The notes beneath the pieces were generated by a model that searched no databases, was not told the origin of the DNA, and was given only the letters and a program-made list of their open reading frames with translations. The position numbers and the translations under genes are program-made. 64,000 nt of DNA from Acuticoccus sp. MNP-M23. Its GTDB lineage: Bacteria > Pseudomonadota > Alphaproteobacteria > Rhizobiales > Amorphaceae. Position 1 is the first letter of the stretch; each line of letters opens with the position of its first letter. Positions 7,408 to 46,107 of the stretch are shown piece by piece. The stretch spans positions 3,340,501 to 3,404,500 of the forward strand of contig NZ_CP133480.1 in NCBI RefSeq assembly GCF_031195445.1, in the 5' to 3' direction.

Positions 7408-8025
7408 ATGACCAAGCGCCACAGTCAGAAGTACAAGATCGACCGCCGGATGGGCGAGAACATCTGGGGTCGGCCGAAAAGCCCGATCAACAAGCGCGAA
7501 TACGGCCCCGGCCAGCACGGCCAGCGCCGCAAGGGCAAGATGAGCGACTTCGGCCTGCAGCTTCGCGCCAAGCAGAAGCTGAAGGGCTATTACGGCTCCA
7601 TCTCCGAAAAGCAGTTCCGCGCCGTTTACGACGAAGCCGTTCGCCGCCGGGGTGACACCTCCGAGAACCTCATCGGCCTTCTGGAAAGCCGTCTCGACGC
7701 GGTGGTCTACCGCGCCAAGTTCGTGCCGACCGTGTTTGCCGCCCGCCAGTTCGTCTCCCACGGTCACGTGCTGGTGAACGGCAAGCGCGTGAACATCCCG
7801 AGCTACCGCTGCAAGCCGGGCGATGTGATCGAAATCCGCGAGAAGTCCAAGAACATGCTTGCCGTTCTGGAATCCATCGGTCTCGCCGAGCGCGACACGC
7901 CCGACTACCTCGACATCGACCACACCAAGATGACCGCAGGCTACGTGCGCATGCCGTCGCTGGGTGACGTGCCGTACCCCGGCACGATGGAACCGAACCT
8001 CGTCATCGAGTTCTATTCCCGCTGA
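7408..8025 (+). CDS. rpsD: 30S ribosomal protein S4
   Basis: A 205-aa primary 16S rRNA-binding protein of the small subunit. It reads [20 protein letters not shown] and continues with [17 protein letters not shown], the long helical segment, and the S4 RNA-binding domain ([12 protein letters not shown] through [12 protein letters not shown] and CKPGDVIEI), ending with EFYSR. The length matches alphaproteobacterial S4. As usual in this class it stands alone rather than in the alpha operon. The ATG is 7408, with GAAG ten bases upstream. A strong terminator lies 37 bp past the stop, so it is monocistronic. Confidence 0.98.
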
Positions 8026-8062
8026 TTGCCGCCGGGCAGCGACTGCGCTGCCGAAGACAGAA

Positions 8063-8096
8063 CCCGTCCGCAGCGTAGGCTGCGGGCGGGTTTTTT
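8063..8096 (+). terminator. Rho-independent terminator of rpsD
   Basis: A 12-bp stem (CCCGTCCGCAGC against GCTGCGGGCGGG, one G-U pair) with a GTAG loop, followed directly by six T residues. It lies 37 bp after the rpsD stop in the right orientation. Confidence 0.92.
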
Positions 8097-8645
8097 GTGG
8101 CTGGCACCGGGGTCAGTGGGTTTCGGGCAAATCGTTCGTGCATTGCATGAGGCTGCACCGCTTCGTAGACTTGCCGGGACCGGGCGCCCGGCGTCCGCTT
8201 CATCATGGCAACAGGGTGGATGTGATGATCCCCGAGTGGATTACGGGCGCGGCACTCGCAGCTTCGTTGGCGGGGCTTTACAATCTGGCGCAATATTTTC
8301 AGTTCGCGGTCACACTTTAAAGTTTAATGGCCGAGACATGCACGGCGCGTCCAGCGCTGTCGTGCGGCGTTCGTCAGGCCGTGCCGGAAAGTTTTCCGGC
8401 GCCCGACACTTTCCTGTGGCAGCAATGCAGGTTCGCGGCTTGACCGGGCCGGCCCGCTGGCGCAACCAGCGCTGGCGTAAGCCAGACGGAACTGGAGATC
8501 TGACCCGCTGCAGGCACGTTGCGACTTGTGCCGCGAACGTGAGGTCCCGTCCGTCTGCGGCAAGGGGCTTCAGCAGCGGTGTCCGTGCCGCCGGTTTGCG
8601 TGAGCGGCCCGCAAGTTGGCCGAAGGCTATGTTGGGGAAGAGGTT
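8097..8645 (+). other. Hairpin-rich gene-poor stretch between rpsD and the CDF transporter
   Basis: About 550 bp with no convincing gene beyond one tiny ORF. It contains several short perfect inverted repeats in a row: GCCGGAAA/TTTCCGGC at 8383-8400, a CGGGCC/GGCCCG palindrome at 8445-8456, GCTGG-CGCAA-CCAGC at 8456-8470, and CTGGC-GTAA-GCCAG at 8472-8485. They could be an untranslated leader or a structured RNA; I recognise no Rfam-type consensus. The long open frames on both strands look like high-G+C artefacts. Confidence 0.3.
8225..8320 (+). CDS. Possible 31-aa membrane microprotein
   Basis: A short frame from ATG 8225 to TAA 8320 encodes one hydrophobic helix (about residues 6-25, LAASLAGLYNLAQY) after a short N-terminus. 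A GGGTGGA sequence lies upstream of the ATG. I do not recognise it. It may be a real small membrane protein, the relic of a larger gene, or chance; the supporting evidence is only its composition and the weak ribosome-binding-like sequence. Confidence 0.2.
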   Translation: MIPEWITGAALAASLAGLYNLAQYFQFAVTL

Positions 8646-9599
8646 ATGTCGGCCAAACCGACAATCAGCGCGAGCAACCTTGCCGCCGCGAGCATTGCCG
8701 TGGGCATTGCGGTTCTCGGCATCAAGTTCGCAGCCTGGGGGCTGACGGGCAGCGTTGCCCTGTTGTCCGACGCCCTGGAAAGCGTTGTCAACGTGGGCGC
8801 GGCCATTGCAGCGCTGTTTGCCGTCCGTCTCAGCCAGCTTCCCGCCGACGAGAACCACCCCTACGGGCACCACAAGGTTGAGTATCTCTCCGCCGTTCTG
8901 GAGGGGGCGCTCATCGTGCTGGCCGCTTTCCTCATTTTGCGCGAGGCGATCGGCGGTTTCATGAACCCGCAGCAGATCGAGGCGCCCTGGCTGGGGCTTG
9001 CCATCAACGCCAGCGCGGGGGCCATCAACGCGGCATGGGCCGTGGTGCTGATCCGCTTTGGCAGGCGCCACCGCTCGCCCGCGCTCAGTGCCGACGGACG
9101 CCATCTGGCCGCCGACACCGTCACCACCGTTGGCGTTCTCCTTGGCCTCATCCTCTCGGTCGTCACCGGCTGGGCCATTCTGGATCCACTTCTGGCGGGG
9201 GCGGTGGCGTGCAACGTCATCTGGTCCGGCTGGAGCCTTATCCGCGAGAGCGTCGGCGGGCTGATGGATGCCGCCCCGCCGCCGGATGAGCTGGACCGGA
9301 TCCGCGAGGCCATCGCGAAAAGTGCCGGCGGTGCCATCGAGGCCCACGACCTGCGGGCCCGCCATGCTGGCCGCCGCACGTTCGTGGACTTTCATCTGGT
9401 GGTGCCGGAGGACATGAACGTCACCGACGCGCACGAGATCTGCGACCGGATCGAGCGCGCCGTGCGCAAGACCGTGGGCGAGGCGCTGATCTCGATCCAC
9501 GTGGAGCCGGAGCACAAGTCCAAACACCAGAGCACGCTGGCCGCCGACCCCGCGGCCATCCTCATCGAGGGTCACGAGGCGTTGCGCACCTACCACTGA
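8646..9599 (+). CDS. Cation diffusion facilitator (CDF) metal/proton antiporter
   Basis: A 317-aa inner-membrane divalent-cation exporter (Zn/Fe/Cd/Mn class). Six membrane segments fill residues about 12-215. SDALESVVN in TM2 (41-49), HPYGHHKVEY in the loop after it (71-80), and HLAAD in TM5 (H153, D157) match CDF metal-site and signature positions. The cytoplasmic C-terminal domain includes HVVVPEDMNV-like sequence, DAHEICDRIE and ISIHVEPE, the usual CTD fold. The ATG at 8646 is set by GAGG four bases upstream, rejecting the ORF extension to 8616. The metal cannot be assigned. A convergent MerR gene ends 10 bp beyond. Confidence 0.88.
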   Translation: MSAKPTISASNLAAASIAVGIAVLGIKFAAWGLTGSVALLSDALESVVNVGAAIAALFAVRLSQLPADENHPYGHHKVEYLSAVLEGALIVLAAFLILREAIGGFMNPQQIEAPWLGLAINASAGAINAAWAVVLIRFGRRHRSPALSADGRHLAADTVTTVGVLLGLILSVVTGWAILDPLLAGAVACNVIWSGWSLIRESVGGLMDAAPPPDELDRIREAIAKSAGGAIEAHDLRARHAGRRTFVDFHLVVPEDMNVTDAHEICDRIERAVRKTVGEALISIHVEPEHKSKHQSTLAADPAAILIEGHEALRTYH

Positions 9600-19318: not shown

Positions 19319-20086
19319 CTAGTCGTGGTTTGCCACGTTGAGCCGGTGGGAGGCGAGGAGCTTGGTGTCCGTCACCTTCCAGGGGCCGACCTTCACTTTG
19401 TAGGGGGCCGCGAGACCTGCCTTTTCGATCCGCTGAGCGTTCTTGTGGTAGACGCGGATCATCCGCTGGCCGGGTGCGATCGCGTCGGCGCTCTTGCTGC
19501 CATAGTCCGGGTTGGGCATCGTCAGGTGTTCGCCGTAGTCGAAGTCATAAACGTCCAGCGCGACGGCATTCCAGCTCACGAACTCGGCGATGGTGCCGAA
19601 GCCGATCTTCCGGCCTTTCATCTCGACGTCGCTGTGGAGCTGGAAGCCTCGCAGGGAGGTGAAAAGGTCCCGCTCCTCGTCCGTGCCGGACATCTGGATG
19701 CGGACGATCTCCACGCCCGATCCGATTTCGCAGAGCGACTCGTAGCTCATCGCAATCTTCGAGATGCCGTCCCATCTCTTGTCGTCCAGCCGCGGGACGA
19801 GCCCGGCCCATTTCGTGGCCTTGCCGATGCGGGCTTTCTTCTCACTGAGGAAGACATCCCGGTGATATTGGAGCGTCGCCGTTACCTTGAAATAATCTTG
19901 CAGATAATTGGGGGCGGTAAAGGTGACGGTCGCGCCTTTGATTTTATTCGTCAGATAAGTTTTCAAGAGTTGGGCTGAAAGCGGGGTCTTTCCCTTGACC
20001 GTTTTCTTGGCCACTGCCGCGGCGAGGCGCAAATACCAAGCATGAACCTTTTTGACGTCATAATTCGCCAACACATCGTCTGACAT
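19319..20086 (-). CDS. Unknown 255-aa protein, second gene of a two-gene unit
   Basis: I do not recognise this protein. It has no signal peptide or membrane segment, is rich in Lys, Asp and aromatic residues, and looks like a folded alpha/beta protein (FKVTATLQYHRDVFLSEKK, VEIVRIQMSGTDEERDLF, VALDVYDFDYGEHLTMPN). The ATG at 20086 has GAAGG about nine bases upstream. It begins 27 bp after the stop of an exported 144-aa protein on the same strand, so the two are probably co-transcribed. The upstream 5' part is more A+T-rich than the surroundings, possibly a sign of transfer. Function not inferred. Confidence 0.6.
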   Translation of the reverse strand: MSDDVLANYDVKKVHAWYLRLAAAVAKKTVKGKTPLSAQLLKTYLTNKIKGATVTFTAPNYLQDYFKVTATLQYHRDVFLSEKKARIGKATKWAGLVPRLDDKRWDGISKIAMSYESLCEIGSGVEIVRIQMSGTDEERDLFTSLRGFQLHSDVEMKGRKIGFGTIAEFVSWNAVALDVYDFDYGEHLTMPNPDYGSKSADAIAPGQRMIRVYHKNAQRIEKAGLAAPYKVKVGPWKVTDTKLLASHRLNVANHD

Positions 20087-20113
20087 GAAAAATCACCTTC
20101 TTGAAATAAATGG

Positions 20114-20548
20114 TCACTTCGATTGAAGCCTTTCGGTCAGCTCGCTGGCCACGGGCACGGTGGCGCAGTCGTGGCCTGACCCCTCGAAAACCGTGATGGT
20201 GACGGCGGTCAGAGGCTCAGCAAAAAGCGCCGTCGCCTCGGTGATCGCGCCGGTCGGCGAAAACAGGACGCTGGATTCAGCGTCCGCCGCCTCCGCCGAA
20301 CCTGCCGGGACCGCCTTCAGCACGATCGCGAGTGCCTCCGGGCTGGGGGCGCAGGCCGGCTGTGCGTGGACCAGAACGTCATCGCCGGTGGATTGGGTGG
20401 TGAAGGCCAGCGGCTTGAGTTGCGCATCCAGCGCCGCGTCGAGGCGCGATGCCCAGAGCGCCGCCGCGGTCTCACCGCTCCATGCTGGCACAGATGAAAG
20501 AGCGCAGGGCAGGGCGAAAGCGATGGTGAAAAACAACGAGAAATTCAT
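20114..20548 (-). CDS. Unknown exported 144-aa protein
   Basis: A small secreted or periplasmic protein that I do not recognise. A Sec signal (FSLFFTIAFALPCALSSVPAWS, hydrophobic residues about 3-20) is followed by a mature Ala-rich domain with two Cys (in PACAPSPEA and HDCATVPV) that could form a disulfide in the periplasm. ATG 20548 is the natural start given the signal peptide. It is first in a presumed two-gene operon with the 255-aa gene. The 5' flank is A+T-rich with possible promoter sequence, but none is clear. It ends with LTERLQSK. Confidence 0.6.
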   Translation of the reverse strand: MNFSLFFTIAFALPCALSSVPAWSGETAAALWASRLDAALDAQLKPLAFTTQSTGDDVLVHAQPACAPSPEALAIVLKAVPAGSAEAADAESSVLFSPTGAITEATALFAEPLTAVTITVFEGSGHDCATVPVASELTERLQSK

Positions 20549-44163: not shown

Positions 44164-44208
44164 CATCCAGCGTAGGCGCAACTTGGAATGTTTCGCCTAC
44201 GCTGGATG
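44164..44208. repeat. 15-bp perfect inverted repeat at the edge of an A+T-rich island
   Basis: CATCCAGCGTAGGCG (44164-44178) and its exact complement (44194-44208) are separated by 15 bases. It lies just after the pnp terminator and at the start of a clearly lower-G+C stretch. It may be a second hairpin of the pnp transcript or the end of the acquired segment; the sequence itself cannot distinguish these. The following bases to 44394 hold no gene. Confidence 0.5.
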
Positions 44209-44394: not shown

Positions 44395-44784
44395 ATGACG
44401 ATTGAAATTAGTGTCGATAATTCACGTCTTGAGGGGTTTAGTACGCCTGCGCGTGATGGTTTGAAAAAGGCAGCTGAGTCCTATATCGATGAAATTATCG
44501 CTGAAGCCAGTCGATTGGAGGCAGGACGAAATCCTTCGGATGGCCCATCCGAAATAACGAAATCCATGGTCGATGACGCCGTAATTGTGCAGCGAAGGGG
44601 GTTGAGTATTCCGCCGCGTGATTATTTTAAAGTTTTACTTAAGATTTCTTCTTCCGTACTAGCGTTATTAGTTGGACTTACATACGGTGAGGATAAACTT
44701 AACGATTCAGGTGGAGTTATATTATTTGCTGTATTATTGGCAGCGGCAATCGTAGCGACGACGCTCTCTGCCCTGAAGGAGTGA
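44395..44784 (+). CDS. Unknown small membrane protein, partner of an RNxxxH membrane protein
   Basis: A 129-aa protein with a soluble N-terminal half (charged helices; EISVDNSRLEGFSTPARDGL and a helix with EIIAEASRLEAG) and two C-terminal membrane helices (about residues 79-97 and 107-125) separated by the short loop TYGEDKLNDSG. I do not recognise it. ATG 44395 is preferred (AGG eleven bases upstream); TTG and GTG codons precede it in frame. Codon use is markedly A+T-rich compared with pnp or the antiporter. The TGA is two bases before the next gene's ATG, so the two are translationally coupled. Not obviously similar to any named family. Confidence 0.6.
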   Translation: MTIEISVDNSRLEGFSTPARDGLKKAAESYIDEIIAEASRLEAGRNPSDGPSEITKSMVDDAVIVQRRGLSIPPRDYFKVLLKISSSVLALLVGLTYGEDKLNDSGGVILFAVLLAAAIVATTLSALKE

Positions 44785-44786
44785 TG

Positions 44787-45386
44787 ATGTTGCAGGATGA
44801 GCGATACGAACGTAGTGCAGTCTCAGCGGATTTACTGCGTGCAATCGAATATAGATCGAGGAGGTCAGCCTCAATCGCAAATATAATGAGGATATATTTG
44901 CTCCTCGGTCTACTATTGTCTATGTTGTCGGCCCTTTACTTGGTTGTTGTAACGTTTGAGATCTCTTTTTCGAGCGATGAATTGATAGCTGTTACGATGG
45001 GTGTTGTGGGTTTAACAACATCAATACTCTCAGTGTTTGTATTGTCTTGGAGAAAACAACAAGACACGGAAACGATTAATAGGATGCGGAAATACGCGGC
45101 AGTGGAGGCGCTGCAAGAGGCTTGGATACGGTTCGAGGGTGTTTATAGCAGCTTCGGACTGCCTGATCGGCAAAATGACACACGGTTGAGTTTCCATGCC
45201 ATGCTGGCTCAGCTTAAGAGTAAGAATATTATCTCTTCCAAGGACATTGAAGTTTTGCGCGAGGCTTTGATTTTGCGAAACGCTTCAGTACACGGAAGTG
45301 AAGCCGTTTCAACCGACGATCTTATTCGAGTAAATTTCGAACTCGAAACGATCACGGATCGCCTGCTGATGGAGAGGTTAAATTAA
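44787..45386 (+). CDS. Membrane-anchored protein with HEPN-type RNxxxH motif
   Basis: A 199-aa protein. An N-terminal cytosolic stretch is followed by two membrane helices (about residues 34-56 and 64-88) and a helical cytosolic domain. In it, the segment LRNASVHG gives R164-N165-x3-H169, the RNxxxH form of the R-x4-6-H signature of HEPN ribonucleases. HEPN domains are helical, and this C-terminal region looks helical. ATG 44787 is set by AGGAG five bases upstream. The coding sequence is A+T-rich and resembles its small partner's. Annotation as HEPN is inference from one motif plus context; not confirmed by structure. Confidence 0.62.
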   Translation: MLQDERYERSAVSADLLRAIEYRSRRSASIANIMRIYLLLGLLLSMLSALYLVVVTFEISFSSDELIAVTMGVVGLTTSILSVFVLSWRKQQDTETINRMRKYAAVEALQEAWIRFEGVYSSFGLPDRQNDTRLSFHAMLAQLKSKNIISSKDIEVLREALILRNASVHGSEAVSTDDLIRVNFELETITDRLLMERLN

Positions 45387-45469: not shown

Positions 45470-45760
45470 TCAGACCAACTCCACCCGCAACCGCCGCCCC
45501 AAAACCTTAGCCGCCCGCCCCAAAACCCCCAACGAAACACTCTCGTTCGCCGGATCAAGCAGCCGGTCCAGCTGCGACCGGCTCGTCTCCAGCCGCCGCG
45601 CCATCTCCGCCTTGGTGATGCCCTCGTCCTTCATCGCGGCGGCCAGCTGAAACGCCAGCACGCGCTTGACCGCCTGCTCGGTGGTTGCGGCATACGTCCC
45701 CTCGTCGCGGAGAAAATCCTCGAACAGGGGGCCGGCGGTGCCGGCTTCGATCTCGCTCAT
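45470..45760 (-). CDS. HTH antitoxin of a RelE/HigB-type toxin-antitoxin pair
   Basis: A 96-aa protein whose C-terminal half is a XRE-like helix-turn-helix (ITKAEMARRLETSRSQLDRLLDPANESVS), the usual HigA/Xre antitoxin DNA-binding fold. The N-terminal part (FEDFLRDEGTYAATTEQAVKRVLAFQL) probably holds the toxin-binding helix. It is second in the operon; its ATG overlaps the toxin stop (ATGA), the common higBA order. It should neutralise the toxin and repress the operon at the palindrome near 46117-46132. Confidence 0.82.
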   Translation of the reverse strand: MSEIEAGTAGPLFEDFLRDEGTYAATTEQAVKRVLAFQLAAAMKDEGITKAEMARRLETSRSQLDRLLDPANESVSLGVLGRAAKVLGRRLRVELV

Positions 45761-46107
45761 CGCAAACCCTTCATACGCTGTACTGCAGTCGCAATTTCCT
45801 TCGGCGGCGTCTTCTGCGTCGTCTTGATGAAGCCGTGGAGGAGAACCATGCTCCCGTCGTGGCTGCAGAAGAACACGCGCCCGATCCGCCCGCCCGGAAG
45901 ATCCGTGCGGACCTCCCACAATCCCTTCACGCCGCGGATCGCTCGGCAGAGCGGCATCCCCAGCGGCCAGCCGAATTCGGCCGTGCGAATGTCGTCGCCA
46001 ATCGCCTTGCGGTCCGCCGGCGTCAGCGCAAGCAGCCAGTCGCGAACCGGAATGCGCCCCGCGTCCGACTGAAAGAACCGGGCCGGCAGCCGCTTGCCGT
46101 CATCCAT
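45757..46107 (-). CDS. RelE/HigB-type toxin (phage-derived Gp49-like)
   Basis: A 116-aa predicted mRNA interferase toxin. Motifs include ARFFQSDAGRIPVRDWLLALTPADRKAIG, GWPLGMPLCRAIRGVKGLWEVRTDLPGGRIGRVFFC and the C-terminal LLHGFIKTTQKTPPKEIATAV, typical of the Gp49/HigB toxin family. The toxin precedes its antitoxin gene, as in higBA. ATG 46107 lies 9 bp inside the palindromic promoter. The pair stands next to the A+T-rich membrane module. Confidence 0.85.
   Translation of the reverse strand: MDDGKRLPARFFQSDAGRIPVRDWLLALTPADRKAIGDDIRTAEFGWPLGMPLCRAIRGVKGLWEVRTDLPGGRIGRVFFCSHDGSMVLLHGFIKTTQKTPPKEIATAVQRMKGLR

Follow-up and report, generated by a model that had tools for sequence, protein, structure and literature searches.

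An A+T-rich stretch between pnp and a HigBA-like pair encodes two small membrane proteins, here called P1 and P2, to which no model in Pfam, NCBIfam or PADLOC gives a name, and the question is what such a gene pair is and what it does for the cell. The window that we analysed is the whole 64-kb stretch of Acuticoccus sp. MNP-M23 DNA in which the pair lies. Both open reading frames are intact and share a strand, P1 running from ATG 44395 to TGA 44784 (+ strand, 129 aa) and P2 ending at TAA 45386. The preliminary description had the genes overlapping-style and 2 bases apart, the latter of which agrees with a P2 start at ATG 44787 (199 aa; 2 bases past the P1 stop), and a second, in-frame candidate, ATG 44784, overlaps the P1 stop itself (TGATG; junction sequence AAGGAGTGATGATG). 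A ribosome-binding-like sequence, the P1 stop and the P2 start thus fall together in 44776..44789, an arrangement in the sequence that we read as translational coupling. The features are as follows.

44164..44208, + strand: 19-nt imperfect inverted repeat between pnp and P1, outside the cassette
44395..44784, + strand: P1, 129 aa (open reading frame, hydropathy, AF2 helices, homologues in 6 other loci)
44776..44789, + strand: P1/P2 junction, AAGGAG-TGATGATG (sequence)
44784..45386, + strand: P2, 199-200 aa, N-terminal membrane hairpin and predicted C-terminal HEPN domain (open reading frame, AF2, Foldseek HepT, family alignment)
44898..45041, + strand: P2 membrane hairpin, residues 38-56 and 67-85 (Kyte-Doolittle scan; model helices 3-56 and 63-91)
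45066..45380, + strand: predicted P2 HEPN domain, residues 94-198, four helices (AF2 model, PDB Foldseek, hhalign to DUF4145-type HEPN)
45276..45293, + strand: predicted P2 active site, R164-N165-x3-H169 (CGA AAC GCT TCA GTA CAC), invariant in 7/7 homologues

By hydropathy, P1 and P2 have two membrane segments apiece, as had been predicted, with the order of the parts reversed between them. In P1 the segments (78-96 and 108-126) are C-terminal and follow a cytosolic helical domain of approximately residues 9-68, the AF2 helices being 9-12, 17-45, 53-68, 77-96 and 105-128, and in P2 the two segments are N-terminal and precede the cytosolic helical domain.

The motif LRNASVHG (P2 163-170, with R164, N165 and H169) had been singled out as an RNxxxH match to the HEPN signature, and several lines of prediction now place P2 in the HEPN superfamily. 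The AF2 model of P2, built from the single sequence, has a pLDDT of 73 overall and ∼80-91 over most of the C-terminal domain, where helices 94-121, 136-145, 151-168 and 176-198 form the predicted four-helix bundle that the preliminary description had proposed to look for. R164 and N165 lie at the end of model helix 3 with H169 directly after it, the same place as that given for the HEPN Rx4-6H motif (PMC3710099). A Foldseek search of the PDB with this model placed HepT toxins in the first seven ranks and YutE at rank 15, with E-values of 0.15 and above that make these matches support rather than proof. In profile comparisons, the P2 family matched the Pfam families HEPN_RiboL-PSP (best E = 9.6e-6, 3/7 members) and HepT-like (E = 4.9e-4) and the NCBIfam HepT model (E = 8.5e-5), with HepT_toxin matching two members; the window P2 alone scored 20.2 bits against DUF4145, under the curated cutoff of 23.1. 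An hhalign comparison with a DUF4145-type membrane HEPN protein gave a probability of 87.5 (E = 3.6e-6, 97 columns), with W-x3-E and RNxxxHG in register.

Conservation points the same way. The homologues are only 19-25% identical to the window P2, yet each carries the Rx4-6H pattern with a polar residue after the arginine, as R164-N165-x3-H169, and the only invariant columns among the seven are G41, W113, E117, L161, R164, N165 and H169. By itself, an RNxxxH string might be fortuitous. Given that RNxxxH is invariant across seven divergent homologues and sits at the predicted end of helix 3, it is more than a chance match, and an invariant R/N/H amid such low identity is the pattern expected of an enzyme active site held amid drift.

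P1 is harder to place. Its family has no MNT nucleotidyltransferase match in Pfam or NCBIfam. The N-domain has short, long and medium helices in succession, and the spacing S-x2-A-x3-L...EA resembles helix 2 of archaeal histones. A ‘transmembrane histone’ is a minor category in Schwab et al. 2024 (PMC11390915), and in P1, too, TM helices follow the helix pattern that recalls histones. We compared P1 by hhalign with three annotated archaeal plasmid histones and HMfB. The score of 20.9 against a maximum of 19.2 in 200 column shuffles (probability 17.6, one helix aligned), together with a global mode in which 1/300 shuffles equalled the score, is a similarity barely above shuffled controls, and P1 has no histone match in Pfam or in the Foldseek list. 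The histone-like fold of P1 is a hint only. We consider it unlikely that the pair represents an undescribed anti-phage class in which P1, as a membrane histone-fold-like sensor, would detect DNA injection or a phage protein directly at the inner membrane and, through its control of the membrane HEPN RNase P2, set off local RNA cleavage. We rejected a copy of the P1 N-domain as the origin of the N-terminal extension that P2 has in Rhodococcus and Lactococcus, as the scores lay within those of shuffled controls.

Searches with a P1 profile, peptide patterns and tblastn found the pair at seven loci, the window included, in four phyla. Besides the window copy, it is present in an integrated capsid-encoding element of Hansschlegelia plantiphila, on plasmids of Sinorhizobium terangae, Rhodococcus oxybenzonivorans and a Lactococcus, on an IMG/VR viral contig, and on the Mucilaginibacter roseus chromosome between purN and purH. 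A P2 homologue adjoins P1 in 7/7 loci, with a spacing that ranges from an 8-nt overlap to a 3-nt gap, and the P1 proteins of the six other loci are 27-40% identical to that of the window. That the pair is kept together at such low identity is expected of two proteins working together. The P1 and P2 identity matrices are correlated (r = 0.58, permutation p = 0.04, seven members), which lends weak support to co-inheritance. The conserved pairing anticipated in the preliminary description is therefore borne out, and with the partner always adjacent and several of the loci being defence cargo sites (see below), the homologues are not confined to housekeeping contexts without the partner, although the window and Mucilaginibacter copies are themselves flanked by housekeeping genes. 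With only seven members, the association with defence is numerically anecdotal.

P1-P2 is a rare cassette, detected in 1/101 relatives and 2/347 genomes of the order (window genome counted); the collection scans used short peptide patterns and give lower bounds. Single-protein pattern scans of viral and genome contigs returned no P2 homologues, tblastn of P2 against plasmids and phages gave chance matches or none, and P1 had only chance matches in phages, to transglycosylase genes with E of 3 or more. A Haloferax match of P1 (E 0.2) was inspected and rejected, as was a Pseudomonadota profile match with an in-frame stop, and at L003, L004, L006 and L032-L036 there were weak hydrophobic-segment matches to larger open frames.

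The base composition and flanks of the window copy bear on how it arrived. The pair has a GC content of 44.8% versus 65.3% for the window, confirming the A+T-rich island described before, and the lowest-GC 990-base segment of the 64 kb overlaps it, ∼5 standard deviations under the mean; the sole other low-GC stretch of the 64 kb is 19601-20300 (57%). The location is also as described, with pnp upstream and, downstream on the opposite strand, a HigBA-like pair, whose antitoxin is an HTH protein (HTH_26, above cutoff) and whose toxin matches Gp49/PF05973 (E = 2e-19). A functional link between P1-P2 and HigBA, by contrast, finds no backing, since HigBA accompanies the window copy only and was not found at the other six loci; with an adjacency that is not conserved, it is an incidental neighbour. 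The same-genus and same-family genomes retain pnp, and the content 3′ of it varies among those examined. P1-P2 was not found in those genomes that were searched or at their examined pnp-downstream sites, nor was HigBA found at these sites. As pnp is kept and the downstream content differs, the P1-P2 stretch looks recently acquired. The inverted repeat at 44164-44208 (95% complementary, 7-nt loop) is possibly the pnp terminator or a border of the acquired A+T-rich stretch. The HigB-like toxin (window 45470-46107) has three further copies on other contigs of the same assembly (G000 C7 8926-9270, C5 16868-17188 and C5 21776-22096; identity 80% for one and 59% for two), possibly plasmid-borne, and none were found in 12 relatives.

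Two of the other copies of P1-P2 occupy the same site in virus-like elements. The Hansschlegelia element has an integrase gene beside tRNA-Met and further encodes a primase, both terminase subunits, a portal and a capsid protein fused to a protease, and with no tail gene recognised among its examined proteins it resembles a capsid-forming satellite, which we infer it to be. P1-P2 lies inverted in its terminase-portal gap, and in the IMG/VR contig the pair lies in the same gap in the opposite orientation. The terminase of the IMG/VR contig used as a query led to 80 loci. Across 53 related loci, on contigs mostly of ∼10-14 kb, the terminase-portal gap measures 0.7-2.8 kb and holds mostly singleton cargo; most of the ∼10-14 kb contigs have ∼1.5-2.8 kb there, whereas the gap is 275-505 bases in those related phages of 35-45 kb for which it could be measured cleanly. 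The median GC of the gap content is 0.55 versus 0.63, and barring short leader-like open reading frames and a recurrent protein before the portal, nearly all cargo genes are singletons.

The cargo of this slot includes Pycsar (PycC at 5e-89; PycTM above cutoff), a fused PARIS AriAB (4.9e-144), the PADLOC candidates PDC-S33 and PDC-S34, and DUF4062, PIN and HEPN proteins. One of the latter, in L079, is a member of the RiboL-PSP-HEPN Pfam family (PF18735, E = 3e-14); a profile comparison of the P2 family with this L079 protein was not significant. Several neighbours in the slot are not known defence genes; given the known systems among its cargo, we regard it as a defence cargo site, of which we found no description in the literature searched. 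On the Sinorhizobium plasmid, PDC-M01A/B (AAA ATPase with HNH, Septu-like; 6e-146 and 9e-80) lie near P1-P2, and this neighbourhood (L037 7451-8725 and 10493-14388) looks like a defence island. It also encodes an unmatched 424-aa protein, an M12 metallopeptidase and a protein of 901 aa that matches caspase weakly. Absence from the relatives searched, A+T-richness relative to the host, plasmid copies in three genera and element carriage together argue that P1-P2 is mobile.

Is the design new? A class of membrane HEPN proteins was already predicted in 2013 (Anantharaman et al., PMC3710099), so in that respect the ‘undescribed design’ of the preliminary description does not stand. Three membrane HEPN groups are listed there, the first being DUF4145-like with one WP-signature TM helix. 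In P2 as in this group, a cytosolic HEPN domain with W-x3-E and RNxxxHG comes after a membrane anchor, but P2 has two hydrophobic segments and no WP where the group has a single WP-signature TM, and, unlike it, is obligately paired with P1. The hairpin anchor and the obligate partner lie outside all three groups, and to this extent the earlier claim holds. The protein of the hhalign comparison above, which comes from another genome of the class (L002 1246-1815), combines a DUF4145-like HEPN domain (RNAAAHG) with a single TM and a VWP motif, and apparently belongs to the first group. The RiboL-PSP-HEPN family (PF18735), although the best Pfam match of the P2 family, has no membrane partner. Pycsar (PycC-PycTM), like other pairs of a sensor with a 2TM effector, is a compact two-gene cassette with a membrane hairpin protein and uses the same slot in relatives, but it has a cyclase/nucleotide-signal protein that the P1-P2 pair does not. 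Against PADLOC 2.0.0 (2023), which covers systems published up to that year, the window P1 and P2 had no match at E up to 10, and the P2 family matched only weakly (CARF_HEPN 9e-4, RTasHEPN 0.006). We place P1-P2 within the HEPN-based, membrane-anchored defence modules, and found no description of an anti-phage system of two-membrane-protein HEPN design in the libraries and literature searched.

Judged from sequence and genomic context, a defence role for P1-P2 is likely. The reading that we favour, and hold to be somewhat better than an even bet in its full form, is that of a horizontally transferred cassette acting against phages or mobile elements, with P2 as a membrane HEPN RNase effector and P1 as its partner or sensor. 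P2 would sit in the inner membrane, with its C-terminal HEPN domain in the cytosol acting as a metal-independent endoribonuclease, probably as a dimer, and P1 would be its co-translated membrane partner, the P1 hairpin pairing with that of P2. The cytosolic helical domain of P1 would silence P2 or sense the trigger. During infection, P1 may respond to a phage component or a membrane disturbance by freeing or clustering P2, the HEPN domains of which would then cleave host RNA, for instance tRNA or mRNA, close to the membrane and so halt the cell before phage maturation. Should the defence role be true, the pair would place sensing at the inner membrane, the site of phage DNA entry, and couple it to RNA cleavage, in a module of ∼1 kb that spans four phyla, carries an invariant predicted catalytic motif and has a slot in common with Pycsar and PARIS.

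An addiction module is a rival reading, in which P1 would serve as the antitoxin, keeping the HEPN toxin P2 at the membrane, and the pair would persist on plasmids and satellites by addiction, not defence. The order of a small gene followed by a HEPN gene, the apparent translational coupling and the plasmid carriage all suit a toxin-antitoxin system, as do the HepT toxins that are the closest solved folds and the HepT_toxin matches of two members. HepT of MntA-HepT (type VII toxin-antitoxin; PDB 7bxo, 6m6u, 5yep) has the HEPN fold, Rx4H and a two-gene operon in common with P2, but it is soluble and has an MNT nucleotidyltransferase partner, a domain that P1 lacks, whereas P1 and P2 are both membrane proteins. 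Single chromosomal copies amid housekeeping genes and a slot common to P1-P2 and direct defence systems also tell against addiction, which we consider improbable, though worth keeping in view. Csx28 of type VI-B CRISPR has a TM-HEPN architecture and is, like P2, a small protein; it serves anti-phage defence and, unlike P2, acts with Cas13b. After activation by Cas13b, Csx28 forms an octameric pore (PMC12669027), and by analogy the P1 and P2 hairpins could form a channel with HEPN as gate or RNA sensor, so that depolarisation rather than bulk RNA decay would be the outcome. The hairpin-bearing 2TM effectors (PycTM) in the same slot would fit such a pore, but the complete invariance of RNxxxH suits catalysis better than gating, no cas13, CRISPR or other cas genes were found among the annotated or translated neighbours of the seven pairs, and the 50 Foldseek matches listed do not include Csx28, leaving the pore a distinctly poor prospect.

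A regulator of membrane stress or RNA turnover with no defence role would be in keeping with the proposal that DUF4145 membrane HEPN proteins sense surface stimuli and couple them to RNA decay (PMC3710099), and the HEPN domain of P2 does align with the DUF4145-type protein of L002, which has a single TM. The patchy distribution among relatives and in the order, the plasmid and satellite carriage and the foreign base composition are, however, unlike a core regulator, and we give this reading very little credence.

In a same-genus genome (L028, G003 C37), a gene of 44% GC (7702-9075) lies downstream of pnp in the position equivalent to P1-P2, with a borderline PIN_4 match just below cutoff, and in this genus the 3′ flank of pnp is possibly a hotspot for insertions. 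The elements L040, L041 and L049-L127 make up a family, mostly of 10-14 kb and capsid-encoding, with a variable slot between terminase large subunit and portal, and this slot is a source of further candidate defence genes, many of them unmatched singletons.
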